NCBI GenBank assembly: GCA_034190875.2
Contig: CM067354.1
Span: 46,671,037 to 46,735,036 of the forward strand
Direction: 5' to 3'
DNA length: 64,000 nt
Source of the DNA: Urechis unicinctus
Lineage: Eukaryota; Annelida; Polychaeta; Xenopneusta; Urechidae
The notes under the pieces are model-generated. The model made no database searches and was not told where the DNA came from. It saw nothing but the letters and a program-made list of their open reading frames with translations. Shown piece by piece: positions 1,010-61,803 of the stretch. Positions within the stretch are counted from its first letter, which is position 1, and the number at the start of each line of letters is the position of its first letter. The position numbers were made by a program, and so were the translations under genes.

Positions 1010-1130
1010 GAGAGATATCATATATATATATATATATATATAGATATATATATAGAGAGAGAGAGAGAGATAGAGTTAGATATATAGATATTAGATATAT
1101 AGACGCGATATATATATATATCAGAGATAT

Positions 1131-1216
<86 letters not shown>

Positions 1217-7300: not shown

Positions 7301-9309
7301 CATGTCGTCCCCGGATGTTAGCCTTGTCATTGTTCTAAAATGACCCAAAACATATATCGGCACAGCAAAAATACTTTTCCGCACATATTGCGCACATATA
7401 GTCAAACTACTCGTGGATCGTGAGTCTTGGCATGACCCATTCGTGCGAATACCGTGACACAAATTGAGTAAATGCCTTCATATATCCTCTACGTTTCTTA
7501 AGCCAATAAGCCGACTCTAAGCTGATCATTGACAATTACATCAGTGTTGCTCTGCATTAAATTCAATACTTTATTTTGATACTGCAGCCCTGACATATCT
7601 TTGTTGAGGCATAGTGTGAGTTGAAATAATTGTTGCGTTGAGTGATTGTCCCACTAGGGGCAATATTCCTGGTATCTAGATTTTGTTGGAAGAGACAGTA
7701 CACCCGAGGACTGACTCTTGATACTCCACCGATTTCGCGTGTCCAATTATGTTCCACTGCGTTCAACAAAACACTCTGGCTTCTAATCTTCTGGTCTGGT
7801 CTTGTACATGATACATCGATCCACGCGTTTGCTAGCCAACTGTTTAATGAAAATATAATATCTGTGCAAAATCATGTATAGATTAACCAAGCATTTTCTT
7901 GAATAATGCCGTGCTATGATTACCTAACGCATAATCGGAATATTTCTTTCTTGATATTTGCGTTTCAAAGGTTGGTACTTTTAGAAGATGTAGATTACAA
8001 TTATGTAATTATTGTGGCCGTGTAAGGTTTTGAAAGACTGACTTATCAGTGGTTTATACCTTCACAAGCTGTAGATAATAATTATAGGTTTGTGTTGGCC
8101 AGATAAGATTTGACATTATTAACGTTTCTCATGTCCCCTTAAATAGTATTGTAGAACATTCCATAAGCGAACCGATAATTATCTTACCTTACTGCATTTG
8201 AAGTATACAGTACGGGCACACTTTTTTGTCTTTTTGATGATTTCATTTGCGCTGGGTTCGAAACATACCGACATGTTGTTGCGTGCTTAGATATAGTCCT
8301 GGACACCTGCCGTAATTACAACATGGTTTGGTTTTATTACACACGGCAACAATAGTTAGTTCAGGACAACTTAAGGTTTATCTCAATTAGCACCCCGCGT
8401 AGTAAATCAAAAATAAAGAAAACTCAGCGGTAAAGCAAATAACAACGACTCAACATTGGCCAGCGTCAACAATTCTGATATGCCTCAAAGAGGATATTAC
8501 ATAAAACAAGTATCCCTTTGCTTTATTTCGAAAGCAATGGTTTTATCATGAAATAATACCATATCACCAGGTTCTCCTGGTATGTTATGAATACCTCATA
8601 GAGGGCAATGGGGTTGGTAATTGCTATATGACGTCCTAAGCAGAGCCCATGAGCATTTGAATTCGTTCAACTCGTATAAGATTTTCAATACTATCGATAT
8701 AGTTAAATTGCATGTATGCCTTGTTGTATGATGGCGTCAGGTAATTATTGCATATTTACTTTTGAATTGAATCTGACGTATTGTACTGTATTCGATTAGG
8801 GCGATGTGTTAGTGGGTGCAGCAAGCCGGAACATATAGAGTGATTTTCAGCAGAGAGAGTTGATGTATTGCGGTAGTTCTGGGTGGTTGTCTTTTGGAAT
8901 AATAAATGTCCGAACCACACTAATAAGTTCTTCTCGCCTTCATAATAATAATCATGCGGATTGTGTTGAATGTACGTCGCTCACCGTCAGGGGCATATAA
9001 CGCTTTTCATATTTGTTCAAACCATCAAGTCTGGCTGCCCGATCGCACACACGCAATAACCGTCGATCATCAGGTAGGATTACCACTCACTACTGCTCCC
9101 CCTTTTCTAGGTAAACTTACAGATGGATGATTGAGCATATTGAAACAGTATGTTTGTTTTCAGATGATTGAACATTATGGACAAATTACTCGTTAATTTG
9201 GTGAATCTGTTCATGTTGGAGCACTATGTGCAAACAGATTTGTCGAGATTTTCGCACTTATTCCGCATGGTTCCATTGCAAATATTGATTTATCATTAGT
9301 AAAAGAGAG
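1328..9309. other. Gene-poor AT-rich sequence, nothing recognised
   Basis: About 8 kb without a recognisable gene, repeat array or RNA gene. The longest open frame is 5079-5447 (122 codons, plus). It has no domain signature and is within chance length for this base composition. A perfect CRE palindrome (TGACGTCA) occurs at 7098-7105 but has no gene-like context. Confidence 0.5.
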
Positions 9310-9583
9310 TTAGTAGCTAGGGCAGGCGTTCAAGTGAGACAGGATCTTCAAACACAGGATACTGGCTGACCACCGTTTTGGGCCTTTTGATGTGATTTGC
9401 TGTGCTGTCGCGCACAGCTGGCTGAGAAGCATTTTGGAGGGCGTGTGGGCGCAGACCGTATTGGCTGCTTGCAGAATCTCGGACAGTATTGATTCGAGCA
9501 AACAACGTCTGCGTGAATAGTATTTTTATTAATAGTTGCGGAGCAAAGCGTAATCCTTTCCCGAACAATATATAGTATGGCAT
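9310..9583 (-). other. GC-richer segment with two overlapping open frames
   Basis: The segment is visibly GC-richer than its flanks, and two minus-strand frames stay open through it (9310-9501 and 9317-9583). One reads as a plausible globular peptide containing SKMLLSQLC and ending ILSHLNACPSY. The other is serine-, proline- and arginine-rich. I recognise no family and see no convincing splice sites. It could be an old exon or transposon fragment, or simply a GC-rich patch in which stop codons are rarer. Confidence 0.2.
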
Positions 9584-12500
9584 GACTTCCTAGCTCTTAT
9601 TGCTCTTGATTCGCCTTGTGGTCGTGTTAGAATGCCAGTTAGATATTATAATAATGCCAATAGCAATAACATTACATCTAATAAGGAATAGTGGAAAGAT
9701 ACACTGTATAAGGCACTCTCCATGATACACAAGTTTCATATATATTGACCCGGTTGTCTGAGCTTTGGCTGCAGCAACAACAATGAACTAGAGCCTTTGG
9801 AAGTGTTTGAAGTTATAATTCAAAGCAATATAACAGCTTTTATGGGCGGTGATAACTGCCTAACTTTATAAGACTGACGTATATGGCAATGGCGGATAAA
9901 GCCAAATATGTGGTGCAAAATCAATGTGTAAAAACTGTGTATGAAGCTATGCTGGAAAAATTATCGTTGACCAAGACATCCCTCTGATTACGGCAAAACT
10001 GAAATAATATATGGATGCACTACGATATCAGACACATATTTCAAATTTATGGGCAAGACTTTTAAGTGGATAGGCAAATTGCACAGTAATGATATGATGT
10101 ACCGTTAATAACGAAAAAAAATTCTGACAGGATATTTATTACTACAATGAAACTCGGACAGACCCGTATTTTCCGCACATACTTAATAGGAATTGCCAAA
10201 GATATCGTTGAAGTGCTCCTACCATATGATGACCTAAGCAATTGATAGAATGTTTGATTGCAGATAATATATGCGACAAAAAAACTAAATTCCATGTTGT
10301 AAAAGTGTTATATCATATTATTATAGTCTTTAAGTCCTGATCAGCCTGTGTGACACATGGTGCGGCTTAATCAATATTTCTGCGAAATGAGCGCCCGCCG
10401 TCCTGCCACCGTAAGTTGGAGGCAGTGACAGATTACGCATAATGCAGACAATGAATCATCCGGGCTTGCAGTGCTGCATGGCCTTACTTTGCCGTTGCCC
10501 ACCAGTCGTTACTTCGTCGGTCACATATGTAAATTGTGCTGTAGATATATACTGGCCTGTTGTATTCGGATCTTCAGATATAGATAGCAACATTCCGAAT
10601 CAGAGGAGTTTGGGTAATATTCCATAGCGTCTACGAACTGATTACCTCAAAATGAATTAGATAACAGCAGTGCCTTGTATAAGATGTAGCTGATACGACG
10701 CGACCAATCTTGCGTTGCGTTTGCAACAAATGACGAATAGAGAAAATTAAGGCATCTTCCAAAAAACACTTGCCACTAAGTAGGTGTGTCACAATATTTC
10801 CAGCTATAAACAATGTGACAGATGCTTCGTCTAAAAAATTATTCGTTATTGTAATGTACGCTCTGCAGGGCTATAAAGATTTAGTATTGATTATCATGTT
10901 GATCCTCATGGTATAAACTCTCATAATAACCAGAGCTAATTCTGAAGCTCTTACAGAAGTCAACTATATAGACAACCGTAAGTATTTCTTCGAGCAGACA
11001 TCAGAGCCCCGACAAGTAAAGTCACCTGCTAAAGTCATCAGTCTTAAGTTACTTTTGACGGGAGTCATTTTCTACAAATGTCATGCCAGCTATATACTGC
11101 ACATATGCGTATGTTAATCTGGTTCAGTGATCTGTGATGTTAACTCTACATCGTAATCGGAACAACAATCTATGTTCGCGGCTTAGCTGGCAAAAATGAT
11201 GCACGTTCATATACGCAAGCAGCCAAGTAGTATAGATTCAGCCCTTAAAGCAAATATGTTTCTATGCAGCAGTCAGACATGCTTTGATTTGTTCTATCGA
11301 CTGGTAACGAAATTTGATTCGGATGCTCCTTGTTAAATAATTTTCCCTCGTGCTATTAACGACATGTAGTTTATCTAAACACGTTAATCAGTACAGTATG
11401 GCGTTGTATACAAACAAACAAAACAGCCGTATCAGTAATAAATTATTGTATCCTTGTGATCTCAGTTGCTACGTGAGTTACTTCTATCATTGGAGGCAAA
11501 AATCGCACCGTAAATTACGGCACACATCGCAAGTTTGAACACAAACTTCAACTATCGCGGAGGTAATACCCACTATTGCGCGTGATAGGGATGCAAATCA
11601 GTATTTTTATCCTAAATTATTGCACCACTTGAGGGGCAAATTCGTAGCTTTTCTCTTTCTTCGAGCTATGGAACCTAAAACACCATCTTTTTTTTATCTC
11701 CCTTAGGCTAAATAACTATTCCCTTCGCCTGATAAGGTAAAGTAGTATCAACAACCAATGGGCTGCATGCTGCTTTACTCCTTGGCCAGAGCGTGCCATT
11801 GTTAATAGCGACCAATGGAAACATCAACAATTAAAGTTTTAACCCAGCTTATTACTAAGGTATCGCGTGAACCTGTTATCGAATATCAATCACTTGGTCG
11901 TCATTTATAAGCTTGAAGCTCAGCTATGTGACATACCACTACGTATGGTGCAGCATCATTCGCTTCAAATGACAGTATGAGCACGTGGAGTAATATTAAG
12001 CAAATACGTTGGTGAATGCGATCCAATACACACATACGGACGCCGTCATAGAAATCGCGCTGTGAATCTGGTAAAAATGTATTCATAGCAGATTCAGCTC
12101 TGGAAATTTATCGATGCAAAAGAATTTTAATGTCAATTTATTGATTATATTTAATATATTTGCTATGAATAAGATATGTGGAGCTAACCGCAGATGAACG
12201 GAAATAACCACCTCGCTATTATAAGTGGCATCATGGCGATTTCAACTTTTCTCAACCTTCTATAGTTGCATATTCTTGACCGATGATACGATGGTGCATA
12301 GATTTCTTAGTGTTATTCAAATATGCTACATGCATACAGATCGATATTGTTCATTAAGTTGATTTACATGTAAGCAGACAAACATCGCAAACATAACTAG
12401 ATTGATGGGCAAATACGCATGTGTTAGAATAGTGAATGACGTGAAATCGCACAAATATGTCAGTTTTCTTATTCACAAGGATTGCCCTGTATGGAGTAAA

Positions 12501-25171: not shown

Positions 25172-25771
25172 TCAAATTCGCACAATAACCAATATTACTT
25201 CCCAAGTGCACAGCTTGTTTTCTTGTACAATAAATTCATCATTTAGTGTTAAATATACTGGACTGTCGTACGCATTGAATGCAAGCAACCGGCTTTTTGC
25301 AGAATTGAACTGCACATAGTATTCCTTCGAAAATCCCTCGCATATTCTAAGCATTGTCTTAGCCGCTGTGACTGAGGGTGCAATGAGTGAAACATCATCA
25401 GCATAACTCAAAGCACCCATATCACGATGGCCCATGTGACATTGAAAATTAGCTTCACGAAGAGGCCTTAGTAATTCATCGATATATATACAAAATAATA
25501 ATGGCGAAAGAACTGCACCTTGCTTAACACCATTCGTGCAAATAAAAGGCTCAGAGCAAGAAGCATTCCATCGGACTCTCAGGTTCTGATGTGTGTACAT
25601 ATTAATGAGTAATTGACATGTTGTTGTTGGACAGAGTTCTTTCTGGCTTTTCATATTCCATCTTGACAGATGCATTAATTTTTCTGGTTGTAGTTCTTCC
25701 GATTTTTTTTCAGAAATAAATTCAGATCTCAGATCCGAAGGGTGTTGTATAAAGCCGGCCTGGTGCGTCAC
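25172..25771 (-). pseudogene. Reverse transcriptase domain fragment of the LINE
   Basis: A 199-codon open frame, far longer than chance frames here, carries the palm of a non-LTR reverse transcriptase. Visible landmarks are LLINMYTHQNLRVRWN at about residues 54-69, the block GVKQGAVLSPLLF at 81-93 (motif 4/B-like) and the catalytic box YADD at 123-126. The thumb-side block QFNSAKSRLLAF follows at about 154-165. The first 40 or so residues do not look like RT. They probably reflect a frameshift near residue 40, since the neighbouring frame around plus 25,650 reads more RT-like. At the other end the expected HLGS.IG-type motif is only found after changing frame near 25,205, so the enzyme is broken on both sides. 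In an intact element it would copy the LINE RNA at the target nick. Confidence 0.9.
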
Positions 25772-25775
25772 GTGG

Positions 25776-26492
25776 ATGAACCTAGCCCTTGACCTTTCCC
25801 ATGATTGGTTCTATGTATCTCCTTGCTTGTGGGAACAACCTTCTCTATGCATCTGCTAGAGCCAACAGCTGTTTATGATTATGGCTGAATCCAACGGCAT
25901 TATTTCTTAATTACATTGGTCAATATGAATTGATCGTGATAAGAGGAAGCTTAAATTATATCTTAGCACTCCGTCTTGCGTGCTTGTGCTGGATTCGATG
26001 ATGCGCAGCGAGAAGATGTCTTGACTTGCTCTGATGGAGTTCGTGCAAGTTAGGAATGATCGGTCCCTATCCTTGAAATATATGTCGCGTGCCTTCTAAT
26101 CGAATCGCGAATGGCCGACCATAAAATGGACAGTATAAATTGCATGCTTCTGGGACGCTAGGCAATATCTGCACGCATAGTCTGTGGTTGTCAGCATGCA
26201 AAATGCGTAGATCAATGTGACAAGTTGGCTACTCTCCTGTTATACAATAGACAGATGCCCTTTTGATCTCTCCCACGAGGATGTAAATTTTATATGTATC
26301 GTTTGGGGCCGTCTCAACACCAATAATCATTTCTCTTGCATACAGTGCATCACGAGTTTATACTTATTGAATACGCATTACATTTAGCATTACAGTGGGA
26401 CTCCAGTTATATTATTTAACTGACGTAATACACTGCATGTTGCAATGATCTTTTTAGGCTTATGCTAGACGTTCCTATTTGCATATAAGACG
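25776..26492. other. Sequence 5' of the LINE, nothing recognised
   Basis: No further LINE protein similarity is visible upstream of 25,775. The insertion therefore appears truncated close to there, though a more decayed extension could be missed by eye. Confidence 0.4.
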
Positions 26493-41114: not shown

Positions 41115-41254
41115 GCATATCTAACGCTTCAAATGTAACGCTTGTAGGCATATCTAACGCTTCAAATGTAACGCTTGTAGGCATATCTCACGCTTCAAAT
41201 GTAACGCTTGTAGGCATATCTCACTCTTCAAATGTAACGCGCAACGCCTGTAGG
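41115..41254. repeat. 33-bp minisatellite, about four copies
   Basis: Units begin with GCATATCTAACGCTTC at 41115, 41148, 41181 and 41214, an exact 33-bp period. Copies 3 and 4 share TCTCAC in place of TCTAAC. Copy 4 is degenerate and carries a small insertion (GCAACGC) before its end. Because 33 is a multiple of three, the minus strand reads an 11-residue peptide repeat (EICLQALHLKR type) without stops. That frame has no other support. Confidence 0.95.
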
Positions 41255-42270: not shown

Positions 42271-43624
42271 CAGCTGTCACAGTATGCTTGAATATCGATT
42301 CCTTTATCTTTGTACGATGACAATCGGGAAGAAATGTTCTCCTTAAAATGACATTACGATATCCAGGCTGACAGTACTCCATCGGAAAGATCTAATTATT
42401 GTGGGCAGCTGACGCTCACGTATCAATATTTTAGCTATCGTCCCGCGCCAGATGATCAAAATATCGCTAATGCCCTAAAAAGCGGGACATCTGTGAATAT
42501 AGCGAAAGAATGCCGATCTATAATAGGACAGACGTTCTCGTTAATTAAAAATTTTGGGCTGATATATAGCGTATATCTCTAACCACCCACCCAAAAAGTA
42601 ACTCAAAATAATTAACTTGGCGCTCCTGATAATCCAGCCATAATGTGTTACATCACCATTAATTCCCGTACAAATGGAAGTTTTGTGACGAAACTTTATG
42701 TGGCGGAGAATCGAGGTGCATATTATTCGAGCCGAAAAAGTGCCCTCTGGAGTTTGATATTTTGATACAATTGAGCTTCGTGTTGACGTTGCGGTACTTT
42801 GGTTTTTACATTACAGATGACTTTTTCACACAATTAATCCCTCCTGGCTCCCAGTAAAAGAAGTGATCCATGGCAACTCACTATTGAGGGGAAGCAAGAT
42901 GTTTTGATCGATGGGCCAAATGACGTTGCGACTGAACATAAAACACTGCGCCTCTTTAGAGTTATCCAGCCGACCACTATTGTATCGGTGCTTACAAGCA
43001 AGATATATACATTTCAAATCCGAATAATGTTTCTGCTAATCTTAATATGTAACGTTTATTCCTCTATATTCTAACAGCTTGTCTTTTAAAATATTGGTTA
43101 TGATGCCACATGCTCATGAGATCCCCTGTGTCGCTCAAGGGCAAAGCATTCATTCTAGGTTCCATGGGTATCCTGCCTCCCGTAACATGGCTTAACGACC
43201 AGCCTATTTAAACACCGTTCGGGAATCATATAGTTCAGTAAAGGGAATGTTCAGTTTTTGTTGGTGATATATGCTTTAGCATTTATAGAAGAAAAAAAGT
43301 AGCAACACGATGCACAAATGATGCCTCACCACCTCTCTTCTTTCTTTAACAGCAGCTGTCTACATGATGTAGATTGCAGCATAACAATTTGCGCATACTA
43401 TTTCAGCGTTGTAATAGCCTTTTTGGGGATGATTGTTAATGAATGTATGGATACCTTTTCTCGACATTTATATTAACTTATATCTCATAATGGTGTTAAA
43501 GGCACCCGGCTTTATGCATATATTGCCTTTAGACCGTGCGATACAGTGACTAACATAGTGTAGACAAAGATAGAGCAAATGTGATGTATCATCCGTTGGG
43601 CTTCGGCATATATATATCAAATCC
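42271..43624. other. AT-rich sequence, nothing recognised
   Basis: Only short frames without motifs and no arrays until the 44-bp minisatellite begins. Confidence 0.45.
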
Positions 43625-43972
43625 CATATACACATTAGGTCGAGTAACTTACATCTCATACCGACATCCATATACGCATCAGGTCTAGTGACTCACACCT
43701 CATATTGAAAACCATATACGCATCAAGTCTAGTAACTTACACCTCATATTGACACCCATGTACGCATAAAGTCTAGTAAATCACATCTAACGTTAAAAAC
43801 CATAAACGAATCAAGTAATGTAACTAACACTTCATATCAAAAACTGCATACGCATCAAGTCTAATTTCTTACACCTCATGATGAAACAGATACACATATC
43901 TGGCTTGTAACGCACTTCTTATATTAAAACCCATGAACCCTCAAGTCCAGTAACTTCCATCTCTCACATATT
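43625..43972. repeat. 44-bp minisatellite, about eight diverged copies
   Basis: Units of the form CATATACGCATCAAGTCTAG followed by TAACTTACACCTCATATTGA start near 43625, 43669, 43713, 43757, 43801, 43845, 43889 and 43933. The spacing is constant at 44 bp although the copies differ at many positions. Early and middle copies are most alike, and the last two are the most decayed. The period is not a multiple of three, so it is non-coding. No internal hairpin is obvious. Confidence 0.9.
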
Positions 43973-46900: not shown

Positions 46901-48865
46901 ATATTCATTTATATTTCTACTAAGAGCTATAGCTATAATGCATGCGCATTTACTCAACATTATTATTAAAAGACAACGTGGTCTCCTACGGAATTCAAAT
47001 GGGTGTGGGGCGGATCAGCACAAATCTTTGTTAGCAGGGCTCACCATCGCAACGGCTTAGTTAAGCGTATCTCAGGGAATTGGCTTAGTTTAAATCTTTG
47101 TGTCTTTTAGTCTATCAAAATCTTGCTGAGCATCGTCGCATCATGAGCCGTGTATATTAGCTGTAAGCCGGTCTGGGTTGGCTTCCATATTACAGTATTT
47201 GCCATGGATAGTGATTTTGAAATGAAGTCGGAGTGATAACGGTAAATGAGTCGTATTCTTTGCAGGCTGAAACTGAACCTTTACCGTGCACTGTTGTTAC
47301 CTATCACGATAGATACCAGCATCATTCGATTCTTAGGCCTCTTCAGTGTAGGAGGGAATGTAACCTTATCTTGTCTGCTGGTTTAACTAAGCCAACTTAA
47401 TTACCACGAAATATCAGGTTGGCTTACCAACGACCGAAGTTAAGGGATGATGTAGTGCTTATTAGATTACATACGTTCGAAAGAACTTATCCCGACGTGT
47501 CAAAACCCAAATACCACTGCCTCAAAGCTTAATGCGATGGCAAGGTATCCAAAGCGACTAAAGTGGACAATTTATTTTATAATGTTTTACAGACGTTTCT
47601 AAAGGTTGTCATTGATAGAGCAAACGTTCATTGCAGTTTACTTGTAATCAATATCGATCGATACCATGTTTGTTATGAATGTCGTGTCAGGGAAACAAGG
47701 GGTAGCTTTAGAACCATGCTTGCTTAACAAAGCCGCCGATCAATGATGAAATATTGATCACCTTGGCTTAATTGCGAGCACGCGTCGAGTTCAGCGCCTA
47801 ACTAGCCTCTAATAACTGGCGTTAATGTTTGTCGTGATTGTTTGGGATTGGACACAATAGCCCTGATGATTTGTTGGAAGGAATATGGTAATCCGGGGAT
47901 GTGCATTGATTACTATACATGTTATGAGGCCCTTCACGTCCACGTTACTCTGTACCTGGAAAGTTTATCGTCTCAATCTATGGTAAGTGATAACTTAAAA
48001 TGTCATCGTGAGTTTGCTCCATGCTTTCTCCCTATCAATATAGACGCAAACATTATTATAACGTGTTATTATCTATATTTCATCGGTCATCTTTTCTATA
48101 TCTGCCTCTATCAGCTGAGCAATAACTGGTGAGTCATTACTGTGAGCCTCTGGCGCCCTGCTTTGAGTGACATTATCAATGTAATCTGATAGCACATAAA
48201 AAACGGTTATTACACCAAGATGTCATAGAAAGATGTCAAATACCACGTCAAGCTACGGCTATGGCAACGTTGACATTACACGGACATTGCTTCATGCCGC
48301 GAAGCTTAGGGTTTTCATATTGGATTCTCAGACTCATGTTACGACAAAATGCTAATTCATTCGTTGTAATGGGAAAACATTATCCACATGACAGCATTTC
48401 CCTATACCATCGTCATTGCTCTCATTTATGCTGCTTATCGTAGCTAATGAACCTATTATAGTTGTGATGCACATGATCTGCCGCCAGTAGGTTTTAACCA
48501 ATGACAATATGTCATGCGCATGATGATACACAGGGTTGTCAGTTGTGTCAGTTTAAAATGATTGAAATAAATATGTATATGATGTTGGAACTATTGTTGA
48601 CTTCGATCACCCTGTTACTATTATACTATTAATTTGGTTGTTCGTGACGTCGTAAGTACGTCTGCGCGTGCTGACAAGAGCTAGTTACAGCACCTAAATA
48701 GTTTTATCATTGCTTTCTGAACAGAAAGCGCGCCGGCATTGCATTCTCTGTGCACGTGCTAGCCATTATGGATATTATAAGAGGTATTTGTATCATCAGT
48801 GATCTTCTCTGATATGTGGGCCGTGGTTAAAGAGGACGTGGACTGCAACGATTAAACAGACACGA
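43973..48865. other. Gene-poor AT-rich sequence, nothing recognised
   Basis: The two longest frames, 45254-45487 and 45591-45989 (77 and 132 codons, both plus), lie close together. I checked them as possible exons, but they show no family motif and no convincing GT-AG pair joining them in phase. A 132-codon frame is near the upper end of what chance gives here. Confidence 0.4.
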
Positions 48866-49089
48866 TGTATAGATATATAAATGTACATGTATATATGTAC
48901 ACATACAGACACACACATACACACATACACACACACAACCACATATATATATACATATATATATATATTTATATATATATACTTATATATATATGCATAT
49001 ATATATAATACGTATATATATATGTTTATATGTATACATATGTATATATCTATATATATATATATATACATATATATCTTATATAAACT

Positions 49090-49129
<40 letters not shown>

Positions 49130-49172
49130 CATGTATATTGTTTGTGTGTTTTTGCTTGCCGTGTGTGTGTGT
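48866..49172. repeat. Compound (CA)n/(TA)n/(GT)n microsatellite
   Basis: A left CA-rich block (about 48898-48942) is followed by 190 bp of interrupted (TA)n, then a right GT-rich block (49139-49173). The ends are roughly complementary, so like the array at 1.0-1.3 kb it could fold back on itself. Frames of repeated Tyr-Ile codons across it, on both strands, are artefacts. Confidence 0.95.
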
Positions 49173-50390
49173 CGCAATGTTATTGCTTTCGGCAGCTAGG
49201 CCATGTACGACTAGCGGTATGAGTATAACTGTGACGGTAGCGCCCTGCTCTAAAGAAGACTGAAATCATTTATCAACTCTATGATGAATTGATTTCCTGT
49301 TGTCAATTACACAGCTGCTACGATGCGTATATTTTATAAATGCTACTTTGGTCGTCCTATGTGCTTAGTAACGCATTTCGTCGCTTCAACTTGTTGTACA
49401 ACCTATGGCAGCAATTAAACGAAATGATATCCAAGTAGCCATAGCGTGTCTTCGTAGAGTAAATCATTTACAATGTAGTTATGCTTTTGGTATATGTGTT
49501 TGTTTTTTGTCTCTACGGGCAGTCTATTTAGAGATACCAGTAAACATAGATGCGTGTGCAAGTGGCATAACTTGGTCTACATACACTGAGAAAGCTACTC
49601 TTTTTTGCACATAGCAAAAGAGTAACATTAATATTGATTAGGTAAAAGCCGCCCGGAAGGACTACAGCCATGATATAAGTTATGTATTTCTGCATGTGTG
49701 CAACTAGTAAACAGGATGTTTAAGATTGAAATGTTTCCATGTTTACTTTATTCATGGCTATTGATCTGCTGATTTTATTTGGATCGCACGTGGCTAATGC
49801 CTCTATGAATAATGTAATCCAGAAATAAACAAAGTACAACGTTTATGATGGCGTGCCTCACGGCATTATGCCCTGATTGTATCGGAATGTATATCACATC
49901 CTGACTGTTACTTTGTCCACCCATAGTTACATTCTGCATCGTATTGAAATGACAAAACATAGAGATGGCATAATCATTTGCTGTCTTCTGAATACCAACG
50001 ACGGCATATGTTGATACCGGCTGATGTTCCTAAGTAACAACATAACATCAGCCATCCCACTTAAACGTACCACCATGGTTGTGTCATTTACATAATGCCG
50101 CCATGGGCTAAATATACAGCTATTCAAGTTAAATACGTTAACGTTTTGTAAATATAGTAAAAACTGAAATACTCTGGTAGTTCAGATTATTAATCGAAGG
50201 TAGTCTTCAAAGCCTTTAAGTTGCATTTTTCACAGAGCTATTGCATATACCAACACCCATAGCCATATGTGATCTGAATCAATGATTTTTATGAATATCA
50301 TCCCCCACATTTGGTAACCCAAAAGCGTTCCAGTCTGCAGAGATAACAGCTTAATATGAATGAATTTATGTAAACATAGTACGTGCAGCT

Positions 50391-50514
<124 letters not shown>

Positions 50515-52163
50515 GTTATTGATATGGATTTGAATAATAGACTGTTGAGCTCTGTACAACTCGACTGCTGTATATCCCTAACTAGCGCTGTGACTTGTCA
50601 TCACGTGCCAAGTATATAACCGTGTGCAAGGAAACTAACCATATGGGTTATACACACTATTATGTTTATAAACGGAGTTCAAAGCTCTAGGAGGTGAAAA
50701 AATTTAATCGTCACAAAAAAATCATAATGCATCAGTTGCAACGGAATAGCTCGTGCAAACGTGACCCCCAAGATAGCATAAACCGCAATGACTTGGTCAC
50801 CATTCCTTGTTTAATTCAAATGGCGCCGTTAAGTGCAGGTTGGGTCATGTAGATAGCAGTCGGCAATACGTAGCTGCATTGTAACCTCTCTGATTGAATA
50901 AGCAATGACCATCTTTTCACTCTTAAACAAGGCTACATTGAATGATTCAAAGGCAATTCAGTTTTTCGTTAACCCCAATGAATAGTCGATTGAATCATGA
51001 TCATAGTGCATGAGTAGATTATGTTACAACTGCCTTCAGCAAGCATTAATTGACGACGGAAAAATGCTACTGGTGTGGTGCGAGGCTGCCGTTGCCTTGC
51101 AACTATTGTTATATTCCAAAGACAATGAAAACTGACTTGAATACATGACATCGAATATTAGATTAGGTAAGTTTGAGCTAAATAAAGCAACACATCGACG
51201 ACAACACGTTGCTTTTAGTAACATTTTAAAACATATGCATACGTTTATATTCTTGAAATCAGATTGAAATTTTACAACACACTGATTTCATATAATCGGC
51301 TGACAAATCCAATGCATACCTTGGACATTTGTTACAATCGGCTTCTACCAAGATATCCGCCATGCTAGTGAATAATAAAATGATGAATAACCACATTCAC
51401 ACATGCACATCTGTTCATATTTCAAGTAAATGGTGAGGCTATTTAAGAAGGTAAGGCGAGAACAAATGTGCGATAAAATATACCAAGTTCGGATTTGACT
51501 TTTTATTGATAGTTTGGTGTCACGCTATGGCTCAATGATTACGTAAACAACAAATGTGATATTGTAGGACAATTTATACTGTGGCATTTCTTCAGGGAAT
51601 CAGATTTTTATTCTTGTCTATCCAGTTATTATAAACCTATTTGTAAGCCTGAATGTAAATAATGTTCATGTACATAGGTACGAAACATCTGGCCTCTGGA
51701 AGTTGAAAAGGATGAGTATATTCTTGGAAACCCCACATGAGCAATCAGACGTTGCCACTTTCCCGATATGCTAAGCTCAACAGCCCCATATTATGAAATA
51801 TTCCCTTCTTATATTAAGGCTGAATGCTAGATATTGCTTGGTGACGCTCACGTGTAAATGGTCTACGTTCCATTCATTCACTTAGGCGAAAATGCTAAAA
51901 CTGCATATTTTTTTCAATATGATAGCCTACATGGGCCACCTGTATCTAAGGTCAGATAGAACCATATGCATATCGGTATGTCGTCCTTTTTTCGCCAAGC
52001 TTTGTTCAACAGTCAATGCAAGGATTAAACGACAAACGACAACCGCTGCATATATGTGTGCCAATACTCTTATATAGTTCTATGCTAATGCAAACACCCT
52101 AATTTATCTACACATATATTATACATTTTCAATATGTGTGCATATATATAGATTGTGACGCGT

Positions 52164-52167
<4 letters not shown>

Positions 52168-52218
<51 letters not shown>
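52168..52218. repeat. (AT)n microsatellite, 51 bp
   Basis: An uninterrupted AT dinucleotide run. Confidence 0.97.
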
Positions 52219-52221
<3 letters not shown>

Positions 52222-54323
52222 TATCGAATTGATTTCATGATGCACAATGCCCTTCCTGAGTCTTCAACTAACCCTTAACCTTTTTCAATGAGAGGTTAGC
52301 CTCTAAGTTGAAGATTGAAAAACAAATGGATTACGAAAATTGCTCGAAACCGACTCGAGGATACTGAATTGAAATGGCAATCCATTATTTGTCTGGGCAG
52401 TGATATAATTCGGTTAATTTTAGGTTGTCCCACACAATTTTGGGACGAATTAGTGTGAGTTTCATCGAAAGTCTGAGAGTAATTAAATCGTTTATAGCTG
52501 CTATCGTTCCCGTCGGCCTGGCACATATTTGCACAGACGGAAACAGCAGTCATCCTACTGAGCAAGCAGGCTGGGTTGTGAGTTATGGGCTAGCTCTAAG
52601 CAGACGTTTGTAAGAAGCGATGTAATTTGTCCCAGTGTCTAATCTTATACACATTGCTTTAGCAACATTGTCGAGCCGCATTCGTTGTAGCGTCTGTAGC
52701 TGACTCTATAACTATTAACCGGACCATGTCACCTCATTATTAAATGTAATTGTGAGTATACTGAAACATTTCATTCACTTTTTCAGCCAACTTAATGGCT
52801 TATCATCTAGCATTAGCTTTCAAGGTTAATTCAATGTGTAGTAACTGAATAAATACTACCATCGGCACGTAAACGTGTATTAGATTGCTTCTTGACGTGC
52901 GAATGGCAACAAATAAAGCAATATATCGTCCAGTTTAGTACTTTTGCTGCTAGAGGTGATAGTCATGATGCAAAACTATCACCCAAATTGTTGCAAATCA
53001 GATTTCAGTGCCAAATCTGGGCTCATTTACGAACTGCATTTACACAAGTGAACCCAGTGCTCGATAACATCCGTAGGTAACGTCTATTTAATCCTAGTTC
53101 AGGGAACTCATTCAAGTCCTGGTTGTAGAACAGTGCCTCTCTTATTAAGTTAATAATGGGTCGTTGTAAGGAACCTCTACCATTCTCAGAAACGGTCGGA
53201 TCATTATTATCATCTTGATCTAAACGTTGCCATTTTGCCATTATATTGCAAGAAGAACCCAACGCCCTTAATTTGTCGCACATGTCGGTTAAATGCAGTT
53301 TAGCATATGGCAGATCTGTGTCTCTGCAGCGCGACTGCACTGTGTTGATATACAGCATAACCACCAAGGCAGAAAGACTTTTATCTCTTTAGAGGGCGCA
53401 AACAAGGCGAAATCTATTGTCAGCAGCTCACGGAGCTTCGACCGTTATGTAACACAATAATTAGTTGGCTGCAATAAACCCAATATATGCTTGCGACCAT
53501 CTGTGCGATCGCATAAGGGTAAATGAGATTGCATGTAAGATGTCTGCATACTGCATTCATTATTCTACTGCAAAATGCTATACCTCTTATTCAATGTCGT
53601 TGATACGCTATGTGCTTAACATGGTATGCTGACAATTTCGTATGCAGCCTCAACGGTCCCCAGGCAGAAGATGGCGTTTTTGATTAAAGACATTAAAAAA
53701 GTAAATTCTATTGTGATATGGAAGTAGTATAGTCGGGATAATTTCGATCACTTGAAGGACTGGTGTAAAGTAATTGTTAAATATTTCACTTACGAGTGGC
53801 CTTATAGTCGAGTAGCTTTCTAGAAATTAAAAGTATGCGTAGTATTCTGCGTTGTTTAAAACTGAGGGGGTCATGATTAGCCATCTTGAAGTCTTTTCTT
53901 GGCGTTACTTTGCGAGTGGCATGTTGTGAGGCTCCGATAGAGTTGTGTTTGAATTAATCCATACCCAGAACAGCGCCATATTGTCTTTTGGGCTTCCCAG
54001 ACTTGATTTACCACTTAAGGGATATTCACTATTCTTTGACACTGTCAATTACTTTGGGGCCGAGAGTAAATAATTGATTGCCCTATGCCTGATATCACCT
54101 GTCGTTAGATGTACGTTCGGCAAAGGCTCAACTGTGTGAGATCATGTCCACAATAAACCAGGTGAAGAGACTATCATACATTGTGGCTCCAGCTCTCCAT
54201 TTCGCCTAAATAATTTTCAGTCATTATGGTTGAGTCATTAACTAAAATCACCATTTCTTGTTTCTGTCAGTAGTATGTAAAGTATATAACCAAAACCTAC
54301 TTTGGAAGTAAGCCTGTGTACTG
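52219..54323. other. AT-rich sequence bordering the gene-like island
   Basis: The longest frame is minus-strand 53023-53367 (114 codons). Its Asp-, Asn-, Arg- and Leu-rich composition is somewhat protein-like, but it has no motif and chance length. I see no exon that I can connect to the P2X7-C-like domain at 54.3-54.7 kb. Confidence 0.4.
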
Positions 54324-54656
54324 TCAATTCTTGTCAAAGAAGGGGTATCTGATCTTCCACAAACAACAAGAGAAAGTTACTCTCCTGTTGCACTCCCCCA
54401 AAAAGCCATGAATACACAGAACCAATTGCTGATAGGCGCCGTATATATGCATCTTTTTTTTGTGGTCATCGTCAACCGCATCTAACTCCCATAGCAAGTC
54501 CTTTCCGGTACCTATTAATAACCTCAATGACCATCGGGTCAAGCACAACTCCTTTCATCTGAGGTAGTGCATATGTGCAAAATTCTGGGCTGTTGGTGCA
54601 ACATTGCCGCTCCACAGGTGTAGGCATTTCCCTACATTGAAGGCAGATGCACCAGT
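54324..54656 (-). pseudogene. P2X7 C-terminal-like cysteine-rich domain, frame-shifted
   Basis: Read 5' to 3' on the minus strand, the first frame (54656 down to about 54501) gives WCICLQCREMPTPVERQCC, a further Cys, then VLDPMVIEVINRYRK. Moving one base at about 54501 (inside GGAAAGGAC), the second frame continues DLLWELDAVDDDHKKKMHI, YGAYQQLVLCIHGFLG, NRRVTFSCCLWKIRYPF and a stop. The order W-C-x-C-x2-C, a Cys pair, a hydrophobic L-D-x-x-V segment, then YxAYxQxxxxxHGxLGxxNRxVxxSCxxxxIRxxFP is the signature of the P2X7 intracellular 'ballast' domain. That domain binds zinc through its cysteines in the receptor. In invertebrates it is common as a stand-alone domain of unknown role. There is no P2X channel part here. 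The exon probably begins at 54656 after a 3' splice site (CTTCACCAG). The one-base shift breaks it, or is a sequencing error or a tiny polymorphism. Confidence 0.78.
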
Positions 54657-55013
54657 CTGGTGAAGTGGTAGTTTATGGAGGGTGGAATCCTTCTTTCAGC
54701 GGAGTGGGTTGTCGGGGGATTGTAAGCGCAAACTGTGGCTGTCTGTCTAACCATCAACTAGCAACTGCCACATCCCATCCAAATCCAGCCACCACACAAA
54801 AATGGGAAAATAGTATGAGTAATTGAAAGTCTTCATTTCGATGGATTGAATATCTTCAATGCAAATTGCTCTCTGTGACCAAAATTGCATGAAGGTTTTT
54901 GGAGCAGCTCAAGAGTGTTAACTGCTGAGTTGTACATTACATTCAATTTTTCTTTCCATGACAGCTCTAAGATTTAGCAGCCACTCCACTCTGCTGTAGG
55001 GCCTGGTTAGTTA

Positions 55014-55461
55014 TTAGTATGTTGCCAATGTATCCTCTGCAAACAAGATTGACTCGTTTTCGGCCTGTCCAGGTCTACAAACAAATGAAAACAAGTAGAA
55101 ATATATGGTTTGATAAGTCCAACATGGGACCCCCTATTTACTGGCAAAGTGATTCAATTAGGTAAGGCAAGCCCAATAGTACCTTGTTTGAAGAAGGTGG
55201 GGCTCCTTTGTCACTTCTTCAGGCTGGTCTGCGACCTCCGTCAACTTGGACACCTGTGTCGTGGTGAACAATTTCAAACTATTAAGCACATCCTTACGAG
55301 TAATAATGGATGTATAAAATTCAATAAAATACTCTTGATAAGAATCCAATTAAAAAAATATTAGAACCAACCTCAGTTCCACACTTTGTTTTATATAACA
55401 TTCGAAAACTCCAATTAAACGAGAGTCATACAAGAAATGTAGGAATCAAAAGATTCACCAT
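55014..55461 (-). CDS. Candidate three-exon small gene, unknown product
   Basis: On the minus strand three pieces join in phase: exon 1 (55461-55432), intron 1 (55431-55332, GTATGA...CAAGAG), exon 2 (55331-55183), intron 2 (55182-55075, GTACTA...TTTGTAG after a T-rich tract) and exon 3 (55074-55014, TAA stop). The total is 240 nt, 79 residues. The start sits in a good context (CCAAAATGG). Exon 2 ends in the hydrophilic stretch QVSKLTEVADQPEEVTKEPH and exon 3 reads GQAENESILFAEDTLATY. Exon 2 with its donor, and the exon 3 acceptor, are the best-supported parts; exon 1 is the weakest. I recognise no family. It lies just upstream of the P2X7-C-like domain on the same strand and could be its 5' part, but the phases do not join directly. 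I chose among frames by eye, so chance is a real alternative. Confidence 0.3.
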
Positions 55462-55591
55462 TTTGGCTGCTTGCGTTTCCACTTTCTGTCGAATCTATAC
55501 TGCTCGTGACGTCACGACTATGTGCTGTGAACAAATGACCCTTCTATACGCATGCGTCATTTCCCATCCACATGTGCTCTTGTTTGTAAAC
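55462..55591. promoter_or_regulatory. Possible divergent promoter
   Basis: These 130 bp separate two outward-facing ATGs in good context (minus ATG at 55461, plus ATG at 55592). They hold two perfect 10-bp palindromes: GTGACGTCAC at 55506-55515, which contains a full CRE (CREB/ATF site), and ACGCATGCGT at 55548-55557, close to an NRF-1-type GCATGCG core. Paired CRE and NRF-1-like elements are typical of short bidirectional promoters in animals. The stretch is also CpG-richer than most of the window. No TATA box is visible. Expression evidence is lacking, so this is inference. Confidence 0.25.
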
Positions 55592-55693
55592 ATGGATGTG
55601 ACCGATGGATTTCGATACGGTGTAATCGACGATATAGTGTTGAAACAGTCCGCAAAATGGATTATATGGGTTCCAAAAGAGTTGTTCTATTAA
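55592..55693 (+). CDS. Short ORF facing away from the minus-strand gene
   Basis: ATG in the context AAACATGG opens a frame of 33 codons (MDVTDGFRYGVIDDIVLKQ at its start) ending in TAA. It could be the first coding exon of a plus-strand gene, with possible donors at GATACG/GTGTAA or nearby. I could not join it in phase to the exon at 56642. The residue use is coding-like but the length carries no weight. Unrecognised product. Confidence 0.2.
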   Translation: MDVTDGFRYGVIDDIVLKQSAKWIIWVPKELFY

Positions 55694-56202
55694 ATAGAGA
55701 AAAACAATCGCATGCCATTTTTTTGAAAAAAATGCACCTTTAACAATTGTCCGAAATGATTGACTTAGCGCATTGAAATTGATGAGGCTTGTCTGTTGTG
55801 ACGTTATCATCCCCCAATTGGCGATCAGTAAATAATACTGTGACAGAAGGCATGCAGCGAAAATCTCCTTTGCGAATAGACCACCATGATAATCGCCGCC
55901 GATCTGACATTAAATTACCTTTCTGTTGCGACACATACCAATACTTACTACCAGAGCAATAATTTCCACATACGGTTTCTATCTCCGATAAGTGTACAGC
56001 TAAAGCGTATCGTGGTTGCGTATGAATTGATACGTAGGACCTAAATGAGAGATCGCGAGTTATAATCCGCTACATGGTCCTTTGGTTTTTATAATCGAAA
56101 GCTTTTGGGTTATATCGATGATATCCTTGGAGAAAATCATCTTTAATGGATAAGCACGCCCCTTGACCATACATCAATTAAAAATAGACCTGAAGAAGCG
56201 GA

Positions 56203-56241
56203 ATGCAAAGCTTGGCGGATGAAAAAATTAACTTTTTGAAA
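56203..56241 (+). CDS. Candidate first coding exon with a strong donor
   Basis: A short frame beginning ATG reads MQSLADEKINFLK. It runs into AAAG/GTGAGT, one of the best 5' splice sites in the window, with one base left over. The other two frames across the segment contain stops just before the donor, although one of them (NRPEEAECKAWRMKKLTF then stop) also looks protein-like. It could pair with the acceptor at 56641 either as a coding exon or as a 5' untranslated exon. Boundaries are approximate. No family recognised. Confidence 0.2.
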
Positions 56242-56641
56242 GGTGAGTTGCAATCGTTTGCTCAATCCGTTTTTTTGGTTTTTGCGTTGTGATGACTCAT
56301 TTATCTGACCCAGTGCTTTCCTTGTAGTCACCCTGTTTCTTTCCTTATTAATTGTTTTTATGCTATTTTGATTAAAATAATCTGTTGCAGTTGTTTTGTA
56401 AATAACAAAAACACCAGGTTAGTGTTTCCTGCACTAACCCCAATCATTTGTACCTCGTCAAATACAAGCAGAAGCATGGGTATGGGGATTGTTGGGAAAC
56501 TGCTTGTTATCGCCACATGAATAACCCAGTCAATACAGTTGTGGTTTATTGAGGTGTTGTCATCCTTTTTGCAAGCTTGAACACTAAGCCAAGTTGAATA
56601 TGCTTGTGTGTTCTAAGCATATTGTGTTTGTGTATTATCAG

Positions 56642-56760
56642 GTATAGGGACATCCTGCCACCCTACATTAATATGGCCCAGGTGGCTGCATATATCCGCC
56701 CCTCAATAAAGAACTTACCAAAGATGCATCACCCATTTCACAGAGACTCAGTTCCAAGAG
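56642..56760 (+). CDS. Candidate internal exon with good splice sites
   Basis: A 119-bp segment lies between TTTGTGTATTATCAG (3' splice site) and CCAAGAG/GTGAGG (5' splice site). Only one frame is open through it: YRDILPPYINMAQVAAYI, then RPSIKNLPKMHHPFHRDSVP. An internal ATG at 56673 lies in an ideal start context (AATATGGC) and could be the true start if the upstream exon is untranslated. If the donor is not used, the frame runs on 11 codons to a stop at about 56791. I recognise no family. It belongs to the gene-like island at 54.3-57.9 kb, on the strand opposite to the P2X7-C-like domain. Confidence 0.3.
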
Positions 56761-56797
56761 GTGAGGGAAAAAACTCTGGGACAAGCCAGTAATATAG

Positions 56798-57013
56798 CTT
56801 GGCCCATGGAAGGAAGAGCTCCCATTTTGGCAGGCTATGCAAAGTCACAATGCATACGGATATGCTCCCTATGGCAAAGTCCCTGACCCGTTTCAATCAG
56901 ATTGGGGCTCACAAGATGGCCTTGCGCCTATTGTACCATACATGGTCAGTATGAACAACAAGCTGACCCTCAACAGCCATCTCGACTACTTTTACCTGAT
57001 TCAGGGCCAGTAA
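56798..57013 (+). CDS. Candidate terminal exon, aromatic- and proline-rich
   Basis: A stop-to-stop frame of 71 codons reads PWKEELPFWQAMQSHNAYGY, APYGKVPDPFQSDWGSQDG and so on to YFYLIQGQ and TAA. It begins 37 bp after the donor at 56760. A possible weak acceptor (GGAAG before AGCTCCC) would join it in phase to exon 56642-56760, but it has no pyrimidine tract. The frame at 56902-57153 overlaps it and is also protein-like (GQYEQQADPQQPSRLLLPDS), so one of the two may be the true frame after an indel. The AT-rich, T-rich DNA after 57153 looks like a 3' untranslated region. Product unknown. Confidence 0.25.
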   Translation, partial: LGPWKEELPFWQAMQSHNAYGYAPYGKVPDPFQSDWGSQDGLAPIVPYMVSMNNKLTLNSHLDYFYLIQGQ

Positions 57014-57153
57014 TTTTGTACAACAGTCGACTTTGTCATCTCGAGGTTTTTATCTCTAAGAGCATGGCGATTGTACCTGTGCCGCGTAACAATGACTTTA
57101 TTGCTGCTATGGCTGCAAAGTTACAGCTTTTTCAGAGACTACTTCAGAGATGA

Positions 57154-60100
57154 TGTGCTTGATTCCATATATATTAACAATTTCTGTTACTGGATTTGTG
57201 AACTGATTTTTTTCATAAAATGATTATTTACCTGCACCTCTAGCTGCATAATGTCTGTGGTGGAATATATGATAAACTCTTTGAAGTCCAAAGTGTTTTA
57301 TTTCTTGGTGCTTTAATATAAAATACATCAATGAAAATCCGATCCCATTATTAACTTGTTTGACGAAAGAAACAAGCATTAGTAGGTTACAAAACCATTT
57401 AATGAGTGAAGGTGTATTATGAATTACATATAACAGTTCATGGTATGAAATGACAATTATATAACACCCCAGGGATAAGACCTTTCAGTGAGATTCATTT
57501 GATAACGCACTCTGAATGAGACATTTGTAGATAAATTTGATATCCTCTCATCCACATTTTATCAACATCGCACATCACGTAAGGCAGTAATGGGGACAAT
57601 ACACACCCGAAAGTTACATAGCATATAAACAGAGGAAATCTGGTTCGTTGGTTCCATTTTGAAAGTTTGTCGTACACGACGCGCAACGCATTGACAGTGA
57701 CAACTTCACGTTATTCAATACGCCAGTATCTATATCACATGTCAGCATAGCGTAGTGCCAACTGTGAGAATTTGTCGTCTAATTTTAACAAAATGGAAAC
57801 AAATATTGTGTAGTTACACGTCAACCACGAAATCAGCGACATCTTCCGGCCGAGCGCGGAATAGCAATGCTCTGTGTCGCCACCTATCGAGCCAAGCGAC
57901 AACACAGTCTCACATTGACGATCAGAACATATTAAATCAGCAGAATGGAGCGGAAGAGAAGCACTATGCATATATTGCTGCGTGCGTGCCAGCCCATAGT
58001 TACTACATACTTTGACAACAAATTTATGCTACTATTGACATTTATGTTACTCGGGCGTCTTGTTTAAGGGTGGCAAGAACCACCCCGCAATGGTTATTAT
58101 ATAGCCATCTTGAGCTGTTTATTGTCTGCGTTTCCTGGAGCGGAGGATACTATGGGCTAACGGTAGATTCTAACATTCCCAGTGGCTACATAATAAATCA
58201 GTCAGGAGAGTCAATGGCCTAAGAATAACTGGTGTCAGGTCAGTACAGTAAACCAAGTTGAGAGCCATCTCGCTTTGACAAATTGTCTGATATGTGTCAC
58301 TGGTTGGCGTATTATTTAATGATAAATTGCTCTTGCACTGACTTTATATTACTGAGCGCGATGTAGTGTTATGACTTGCGCTGGTTGCTAGCTCTAGTAC
58401 AATGGGGCAAAGGTTTTGTGTAGGAGCCCAGGTATGTGAGTTGAGTAATGCCGGCGTCACCGATTTTCTGTTAAGAAGTATGACAGCATAACCGATGCAG
58501 TTATGATTGAGCGGGTAACAAGAACCTAACGTGGTGCAACTATGTAGCGCGGCCATCATTCCCAAGACTTACACGAGTCTGTAAGTAGAATAAACCAGCG
58601 AATAGATTTATTTGCTTGCTGAACTGGAAACAGGCGGTGTCGCCATTTTATGATAGAATATTTTGTGCACGGTATGCCATTCATCACACAATGAAGGGAA
58701 TGATGTACCAGGCTTTTGATGTATTTAATATGCATTGTGTAGTTTACACATATTGTCAAGCACATAGAAAACCCTTCGTAAACTCCGGCGCTTGGCAGAA
58801 TTTTAATGGCTGCATCTTCTGTTATAGTTGGACGTGCCTCTTGTCAGATTATTCAGCCTGAAAATTCGCTTCACCTTAGTATGAACCAAACTATAACAAA
58901 TTAACTCAATCGTATGAAATATCGACGGAACATACGATAGATGGGTGTTTATTGTTCGGAGATATCATTAGTGTCATGGAATCAATACTTTATGCTCACT
59001 TCGTCATGACAAAAACAAAATATTCAGATGATGTTTGAGATGGTAATCTGAATATGAAATTTGAGACTGCAATTGCAGGCATTGTAAAATAATGTACAGA
59101 AAAGAAGCGGTTCTGTCTCTTTCCATACTTGGCGAGCTGTCAAAATATGTTTGACACCCTTCTGACACCTTCTATGTTGTTGTGTGAATGGTCTTTGCGG
59201 GAGAACGTTCACCCCTATTGCTGCTACCTCCATCCGTCATTGCCATTTCAATTATTGCAATTAATAGCTGCGTAATAAGTAATAAACAAAGTATGTGAAA
59301 ACATTCTGTCATAGATAATATGTAGTTTTGGAACCGCCTTGTATTTGGGGTGCCTTTTGTTCTTTCTTTTTATTATTAATTAAAGAACTTGGCTAAGGCA
59401 ACAAGCTGATGAACAGACCCCTGAAGTCTGCAACGGATCAAACATGGAGCCTAATGAGAAACGTTTACCAATCACTGTCGCATAAGTGACTCTAATGCTG
59501 AAACTGCATCCATCACGTCAAAAGGCCTGTGAGTAGTATATAAGAGTTATCTATACCAGTGTTGATGGGTTAATCTAAAGATTGCTCATTAACGCAATTA
59601 CTGGGTCGACAACACATGGTTAACAACTTTGTGTCGACCCCAATGTAATATTCGTATTGATGCACTAATAACTTTAAATGATGACAGTTACAAGCGCTGG
59701 CGAAACCTCGGTGTCGGGACCAAAGGAAGAGGGGAACATTTGGTGCTACATAACAATCTGGATACTGTAGTAACGATTTATAGAGCGAGATGTAAGTAAA
59801 AAGTGTGACATAACATTAGATCAATTGCCATAATATGCTTTTCCTCTGTCATGAACGATGGGTTCATGGCCTTTGTATCATACTTGATTCCGAGTATCAC
59901 CATGTAATGGTATGTCAATAAATTATGCTCCCAGCATATTTATATATCTAAATCACACAACGAAATAATGCCTGCTTTTTTGTGTGTACTTTTTGCTGTG
60001 TCAAGGCTTCAGATTTGCGTACCGAATACAAATAAATACACATCAAAAGTTGAATGACTAGGTAGCGTTGACAATTGCTTCTGCATAATTGAGGCTGAGT

Positions 60101-61263
60101 AGATATTAAAAGGTCTGATGCTTTAACATCCCCATTGTCATATGCGTGGGCATAGTTAAAATGTGTTGGGGTAAATCCTGTTATTGACCGAATGTCTGTA
60201 ATGCTGAAATAAAACAGTCATCGCTCTCTACCACTCAAAGAAATATTTGCCATTCCCAGACCAAATTATTTATTGGATTGCTTAACACGCGGTTTTACCA
60301 TGGGAACGGGCATTACAGACACGCTTTGTAGCATTGAAATCGAATAACACACACCATATTGATCGATATACATAATGAGCTGTTTGCATTACCGTATTCA
60401 GTAGCATAGATTTATTGACATTGCATTAGAATCATCAGCCTGTTATCGGGATAATAAATACATGCAACGCCTACCATTTCCTCATATATTATAGCACTAT
60501 AGATGTAGCATTTTTCATATTATTTACCACGACATTCTTTGAATACTATACAGCAAAGCACAGGATGTGGTTTTTTTTCTGAAGGTTTTTGTGCGCCATA
60601 TTCATCGTTGCATTTACCATGTGTCAATTTGCTGATTGCTAATGCACAAATGCAGTGCCGCTTATTAGGTTCAACCGATGATCTACCTTACGACTCTGTC
60701 AATAGCCTACCGACAAGGTCGTGCTTGCTATTTTGTAATGCCTCATGTATTCATAAACATTGACCTTTACTTGCATTGTAACAAGCGTCGTGTATGCGCC
60801 CTAAATCCTCAATAACGGTGATGACACTTATATATACAATTCACGGTAGCAAGATAGCTAGCAATTAAAGTGATGTATTTGGAAAAGGTTGGCTATTTTA
60901 AGGAGTGATACATTTTCAAGGCAGAGCTCGAATATGGCCACATATCTATAAGCTTTGCCTCCCTCTTAACTTATCCAACCAAACCACCTTATAATAGGTG
61001 TTGTCCTTATTTTCATGCACTGCGATGGTTTTGAGTAGTTTGAGGCATATTTCTAAGAATTTTTGGCCAGGGGCCCACGGGTCATTTTGGGGAGTCGGGC
61101 GGTCATTGAGTCGACTACAAATCTAGTGCGGCGTTTCACGTCGCAAACTGATCGCCAATAACTTGGTTGATGCCTGGCCGATGTCCAGCAGGGTATTGCA
61201 CGCATCGGACGCGCTCTACATAATTTCAAAGTACAAGTCCCATAGAAACAACAACGACAACGA
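57154..61263. other. AT-rich sequence with two start-like CpG-rich spots
   Basis: At 57840-57890 the minus strand has a CpG-rich stretch with CCGGAAGATG (an ETS-type site overlapping an ATG at 57842). A second well-placed ATG lies at 57657 (TCAAAATGG, reading MEPTNQISSVYML). Either could be the 5' end of the minus-strand genes of the island, but I could not join them in phase to anything. From 58 to 61.2 kb I see no gene or array. A 9-bp inverted repeat at 59603-59640 is noted and not interpreted. Confidence 0.35.
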
Positions 61264-61307
61264 GATGCCCGAGGCAAATAAGGGGGACAGAAGGGGGCAC
61301 CCACAAG

Positions 61308-61347
<40 letters not shown>

Positions 61348-61803
61348 CCCAGAAAAAAAACGTCCAGAGGACGAGACGGTGAGTGGAAGCAAAGTGAGTG
61401 AATAAGAAGACGATGTGTTTCCCTCCCAGCCAGCAGACCTCAAAATTCACAGAGGCCTTAGACGAGCGCATTGCCTCCTACTTTGAGGACCTTCCGGCCT
61501 TTAATGACATAACAAACACTGACTACAAAAACAAGGTAAAGATAAAGGCACTGCGGAAGGTATTTGCAGACGAGTTGGGATAGACGCGTGGGCATGTTTT
61601 AAAGATCATCAATTTGATTTCATGCTTACCAATAATTTTCCCGCCAGTCATTATTTCGAAGTGTTTTATAATTTACAGTTTTTTGCATTGTTTCCTTTCC
61701 ATCTGCTTACATACCCAAAATCATGCCGCGGCTTCGGTCAATGCGCTTTGAATATTTCAAGCTGAGGGACAAAACGCAGAAAAGGAAGTCTGGCAAGGAA
61801 TAG
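61264..61803 (+). pseudogene. MADF-domain gene fragment with poly-proline leader
   Basis: Exon 1 (about 61264-61378) starts at ATG and reads MPEANKGDRRGHPQE, a run of 12 prolines encoded by a pure C tract, then RPEKKRPEDET, ending at a strong donor (ACG/GTGAGT). A 55-bp intron (61379-61433) ends in TTTCCCTCCCAGCCAG, and exon 2 continues in the same phase: FTEALDERIASYFEDLPAFN, TDYKNKVKIKALRKVFADEL. This matches helices 1-2 of MADF (Adf-1-like) DNA-binding domains, where a Trp usually sits at the ALRK position. Helix 3 and the basic tail appear at 61723-61803 (RSMRFEYFKLRDKTQKRKSG), but a stop at 61575-61577 and a stop after KSGKE interrupt the model. Such proteins are chromatin or transposon-associated DNA binders. 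I favour a decayed copy, or a gene whose remaining introns I misread. Confidence 0.55.
61310..61346 (+). repeat. Poly-C homopolymer, 37 bases
   Basis: An uninterrupted C run followed by GCCC. On the plus strand it supplies the poly-proline run of the MADF-like fragment. On the minus strand it yields meaningless glycine-rich frames. Its length is likely to be unstable or misassembled. Two of three length changes would shift the downstream frame. Confidence 0.95.

Follow-up and report, generated by a model that had tools for sequence, protein, structure and literature searches.

A P2X7 ballast-like domain in the Urechis unicinctus genome is very probably what remains of a KolX gene in a Kolobok-type DNA transposon

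According to PMC9587614, the intracellular (ballast) domain of the P2X7 receptor, which has seven zinc-coordinating cysteines, shares its fold with the KolX proteins of Kol0 Kolobok transposons, from which P2X7 itself, and likely also NANOR, arose. The same paper gives a TTAA target with 5'-RR and YY-3' termini as the mark that separates Kolobok from piggyBac, and C/DxxH between the second D and the E as a signature of Kolobok and four other superfamilies. Channel-free ballast domains have been described across animals and were taken as a small gene family (PMC7016195). Here we examine a ballast-like domain at 54324-54656 of a 64,000-nucleotide stretch of the Urechis unicinctus genome (contig CM067354.1, here C13, 46671037-46735036; hereafter the window), which a first-pass annotation had described as a stand-alone P2X7-like domain. 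The locus is almost certainly the dead remnant of a cut-and-paste DNA transposon of the Kolobok type (Kol0), in which the P2X7-like piece is a decayed KolX gene and not a stand-alone gene. The annotation thus held as regards the missing channel, but not as regards an independent gene. It had also called the role of such copies unclear. For their origin an explanation is already in print: the link between the ballast domain and KolX is published in PMC9587614, the only paper joining KolX and Kolobok that we found in the literature searched, and the window copy adds a new but broken member to this known kind.

The ballast-like domain and its likeness to P2X7

Two overlapping frames on the minus strand carry the domain, with the WCxCxxC and ERxCC motifs in the frame 54472-54672 and the YGAYQQ, HGFLG, NRRV, SCC and IR motifs in the frame 54324-54554. 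Against the Pfam family P2RX7_C (PF20478; curated cut-off 23.5 bits), the first frame scored 31.2 bits (expectation value, E, 2.6e-7) and the second, taken alone, 14.2 bits (E 0.04), so that of the two halves proposed for profile checking one passed the cut-off and the other fell below it. The 115-residue piece read through the frame change scored 44.3 bits (E 2.4e-11), or 40.8 bits with the shift placed differently. With X written at the stops, the frames covered profile positions 75-135 and 137-191 of 192, and, since these stretches adjoin, the frames are neighbouring pieces of one domain. Its first half, with the first six of the seven zinc cysteine positions, occupies 54504-54672 (minus strand), and its second half, with the AYxQ, HGxLG, SCC and IR motifs, occupies 54327-54503 (minus strand; 14.9 bits with X at the stops).

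Comparison with solved P2X7 chains gave E 1.9e-4 for the read-through piece and a poor E of 0.33 for the first half alone; the second half alone had no match among these chains. When a profile built from two P2X7 chains only was run against all window frames of at least 25 residues, the two frames ranked first and second of 1669, at 16.6 and 11.0 bits, respectively. None of 60 dinucleotide shuffles reached 16.6 bits (best 13.3) and two exceeded 11.0, which means that the second half alone does not rise beyond chance; its position directly after the first half is what counts. Eight cysteines of the read-through domain (C8, C10, C13, C24, C25, C32, C102 and C103) were invariant with the two P2X7 chains, and we take the first seven to be the zinc-coordinating ones. 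A single-sequence structure prediction of the read-through domain had a mean predicted local distance difference test score of 49.2 and was not used; a Foldseek search with it against the PDB returned 23 matches (E up to 10), none at E <=0.001 and none to P2X7. A P2X7 ballast-like domain is truly present in the window, as the first-pass annotation had proposed.

Likeness to the solved chains is also what one would see if the locus were part of a P2X7-type receptor gene or of a pseudogene derived from one. We found no channel domain near the window copy in the six frames of 47000-61799, and in the whole genome (1.19 Gb, 926 contigs) the P2X channel exon (PF00864) gave 15 matches (25 of 25 candidates scored), which lie in three places on C15, away from the window's own contig. 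The nearest ballast match lay more than 4 Mb from the channel exons among the matches listed (2591 ballast candidates, of which 150 were scored), and over that set we therefore saw no P2X7-type fusion. The window copy shares the domain and the cysteine pattern with the receptor ballast but has no channel and sits inside a transposon; we consider a receptor origin vanishingly unlikely.

A repeat family with Kolobok-type ends

The first-pass annotation had suspected scattered, partly broken copies of an expanding family and had suggested counting them. At least 150 P2RX7_C matches are present in the genome (150 scored of the 2591 candidates), all of those listed lying above the cut-off, and the DNA at 54250-54760 of the window (511 bp) has 39 other copies at 88-92% identity (of 660 candidates 40 were scored, one being the window sequence itself), which bears out that suspicion. 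In 34 of the 39 the match ends exactly at window position 54281. Such scatter is explained if the domain is the KolX gene of a Kolobok-type transposon. Relatives sought in viral, genome-contig and phage sequence collections were not found.

Flanks were taken for 20 loci of the P2RX7_C family. TTAA together with both termini was recognised by pattern in seven of them (L009, L010, L011, L012, L014, L021 and L023), and L020 is an eighth locus with TTAA at both ends, its 5' end being degenerate. Six loci have one TTAA end only (L013, L016, L017, L022, L025 and L026), the second end of L017 lacking it; in L028 the 5' end is altered and the 3' end has no TTAA, and no trusted termini were found in L015, L018, L019, L024 and L027. 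Two groups of terminal repeats could be told apart, both with AG and CT as their termini: L010, L011 and L012 have in common a stretch of about 6.8 kb (96-97%), with TTAA at both ends (the fetched stretch of L010 ends at its 3' TTAA) and inverted repeats starting AGAGGCTGTTCAGCC, while L009, L021 and L020 carry a second kind, AGGTGCATTT or nearly so, again with TTAA at both ends.

The window holds the 5' part of a Kolobok-type copy at 54281-55739 (minus strand), which aligned with the 3977-bp relative L020 in two blocks, 55743-55385 at 86.7% and 55384-54281 at 88.5%. It is without L020 positions 361-1506, at the junction 55385/55384, and 2596-3977, the 3' third; L009, L021 and L028 also hold extra DNA of varied lengths at this junction, and between L011 and the window there is no match at the DNA level. 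A TTAA target site at 55740-55743 marks the 5' end of the copy and is followed on the minus strand by AGGTGCATTTT, 15 bases that are identical at the 5' end of L017, L021 and L026 and differ by one change in L009. The 5' terminal inverted repeat, AGGTGCATTTTTTTC, starts with 5'-AG and lies at 55725-55739 (minus strand). Its 3' partner, ATGCACCT followed by TTAA, is found in L009, L013, L020, L021 and L025 and has been lost from the window copy, whose 5' end was recognised only by comparison with relatives.

Thus the TTAA target site duplication is seen in relatives and on the 5' side alone in the window copy, the AG and CT termini agree with 5'-RR and YY-3', and KolX occurs as a second protein in open frames of 169 residues in L011 (101.3 bits to P2RX7_C) and 180 residues in L009 (106.2 bits). 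A piggyBac transposon carrying a KolX-like protein is extremely unlikely, since the 5'-AG and CT-3' termini are Kolobok-like and unlike those of piggyBac, the transposase-like frames of the relatives contain DxxH, and the window copy keeps its cysteines, most of which are missing from the piggyBac versions according to PMC9587614. Set beside the published Kol0 Kolobok elements, the family has the same seven-cysteine ballast pattern, TTAA target, 5'-RR/YY-3' termini and second, transposase-like gene; it differs in that the window copy is broken and 3'-truncated, and in that only signature and context support the transposase assignment.

That assignment concerns a 364-residue frame in L012, on the strand opposite KolX, for which tblastn gave matches in 8 of 21 sequences (L010, L011, L012, L013, L016, L018, L022 and L023). 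The match in L013 (27% identity, E 1e-22) comes from a locus whose 3' terminus shares the terminal-repeat group of the window's 5' terminus. L012 shows DGRSDSPG and VTDAHPQ blocks, with DVWH and NHFW in another frame, and L013 shows DGRMDSPG, VTDQHPQ and DIWH; DVWH or DIWH was present in four of four loci viewed, L011 and L018 having DVWH. We regard the opposite-strand frame of the relatives as a putative transposase by signature and context, the third catalytic residue not having been located.

Several results weigh against a Kolobok-type origin. Within the window alone, TTAA-flanked terminal repeats around the domain numbered 2832 pairs with a best score of 7, within the 4.5 to 9.5 of 30 controls, although the lack of a pair above controls is expected if the 3' end has been lost. 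One or both clean TTAA ends are missing in 12 of the 20 fetched loci. Apart from P2RX7_C, no Pfam match exceeded the cut-off in the six frames of 47000-61799, and the L012 transposase-like frame found no tblastn match in the window piece 49501-59450, nor in L020; L013 is its sole match in the window's terminal-repeat group. The DxxH block sits in a frame other than the longest open one, and a Pfam scan gave the transposase-like frame no family name, which is why its assignment rests on signature and context.

KolX is built differently in a further set of loci, L041-L044, which came from a group of 59-residue matches (profile positions 143-191), share 3.1-3.5 kb at 95.8-98.6% and have no DNA match to the window. 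We rejected the idea that these matches form a half-domain family, because a frame with the cysteines of the other half lies upstream in L041, L043 and L044 and the pieces look like exons. KolX is thus seemingly split into two exon-like pieces, the upstream one being listed for three of the four; no upstream cysteine-bearing frame of at least 55 residues was listed for L042. On the opposite strand of L043, the one locus of this set that was scanned, we found a THAP domain (46.2 bits). Separately, a 199-residue open frame with a dense CxC-type cysteine cluster lies upstream of KolX at 5841-6437 of L011 (minus strand; 206 residues in L012; no Pfam match for the L011 frame); it may represent a 5' exon or an additional gene of the transposon.

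Lesions and reading frame of the window copy

We aligned the window copy with 20 further distinct copies, in 21 rows, two of which (L020 and L037) are the same place. An extra base at 54504 (minus strand; placement +/- about 2 bases) splits the domain and is absent from all 20; the alignment thus places at 54504 the one-base frame change that the first-pass annotation had put near 54501. A further extra base at 54308 is likewise found in the window copy only. A TAA stop at 54673-54675 (minus strand), where the 20 other copies have sense codons, interrupts the upstream part of KolX; homology extends upstream past it, and the part at 54676-54753 (minus strand) is the counterpart of the open 139-residue KolX frame of L020 (78.3 bits to P2RX7_C).

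A second stop, TGA at 54324-54326 (minus strand), is not private. A stop is present here in each of the 13 further distinct copies of the subfamily (12 TGA, 1 TAA), and all seven more distant copies have a sense codon, so the stop spread together with the subfamily; 54324, given as the start of the annotated feature, is the last base of this codon. Homology continues past it into remains of a KolX tail (QYTGL) at 54309-54323 (minus strand) that fit a tail motif, Y(S/T)G, given in PMC7016195. Relative to the open frame of L009, and in this respect differing from the published Kol0 elements, the common stop removes 12 residues, and the KolX of this subfamily may simply be shorter.

In the aligned stretch 29 substitutions are private to the window copy, compared with 2 to 15 in 12 of the 13 other copies and 42 in L028. 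Its Kimura two-parameter distances to the 12 nearest copies range from 0.073 to 0.108, and the mean among the 13 copies is 0.061. Its 23 private coding substitutions fall 8, 7 and 8 on the three codon positions. With this even spread and the private stop and frame change, it looks like an old, unconstrained, dead copy, and most likely does nothing now.

These lesions bear directly on the proposal that the locus is a stand-alone host gene of ZCD type (NANOR-like) or else a KolX that has been domesticated. Animal genes of this sort have been described (PMC7016195 and PMC9587614), and the window copy keeps all seven zinc cysteine positions; NANOR-like ZCD proteins (PTHR36981; PMC7016195) have the same channel-free domain. 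Those, however, were taken as host genes in PMC7016195 (NANOR being, in the view of PMC9587614, probably a domesticated KolX), whereas the window DNA is a copy in a repeat family with TTAA-ended members, and instead of an intact, constrained frame we found a private stop, a private frame change and private coding changes spread evenly over the codon positions. Domestication, which the first-pass annotation had raised, is not supported, this copy showing no sign of it, and we consider a host gene very unlikely.

As for how the Kolobok-type fragment would have arisen, KolX on one strand of full relatives would face a DDD/E-type transposase on the other. By analogy with the published class, this transposase would recognise the terminal repeats and insert the element at TTAA, with KolX probably acting as an accessory subunit of the transposition complex. 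Transposition would then have scattered the family over the chromosomes, and the window copy would have lost its internal piece and 3' third and gained the extra base and the stop.

Other features and implications for the family

Elsewhere in the window, a reverse transcriptase fragment that is part of a retroelement lies at 25175-25810 (minus strand; RVT_1, 58.4 bits), and tandem arrays built of 33-bp units and of 44- or 88-bp units lie at 41115-41240 and 43624-43955. Other inverted repeats in the window scored 26.6 bits at best, with 20 control placements at 23.5 to 32.8, and Rfam at gathering scores gave no match in the window. Among the relatives, a Pao-type retroelement frame adjoins the Kolobok copy in L022 at 8840-9949 (plus strand; Peptidase_A17, 122 bits), and L021 has a 163-residue open frame at 742-1230 (plus strand) with no Pfam match, which to us recalls the capsid-like proteins of Polinton-type elements.

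It is an evenly balanced possibility that the KolX of the window subfamily had already lost its conserved C-terminal tail, through the common stop, when the subfamily multiplied, mostly as copies without a transposase of their own. In that case movement would require neither the tail nor KolX in cis, and one genome would contain at least three Kolobok-type lineages that differ in how their KolX genes are built, a natural series in which to ask what KolX does and how P2X7 acquired it. This genome, in which open KolX genes occur alongside broken ones, would lend itself to testing KolX function. Our result fits the published proposal that the ballast of P2X7 was acquired from a Kolobok transposon. 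Scattered 'P2X7-like' pieces in animal genomes can be transposon genes, and KolX copies should not be annotated as P2X7 receptors.
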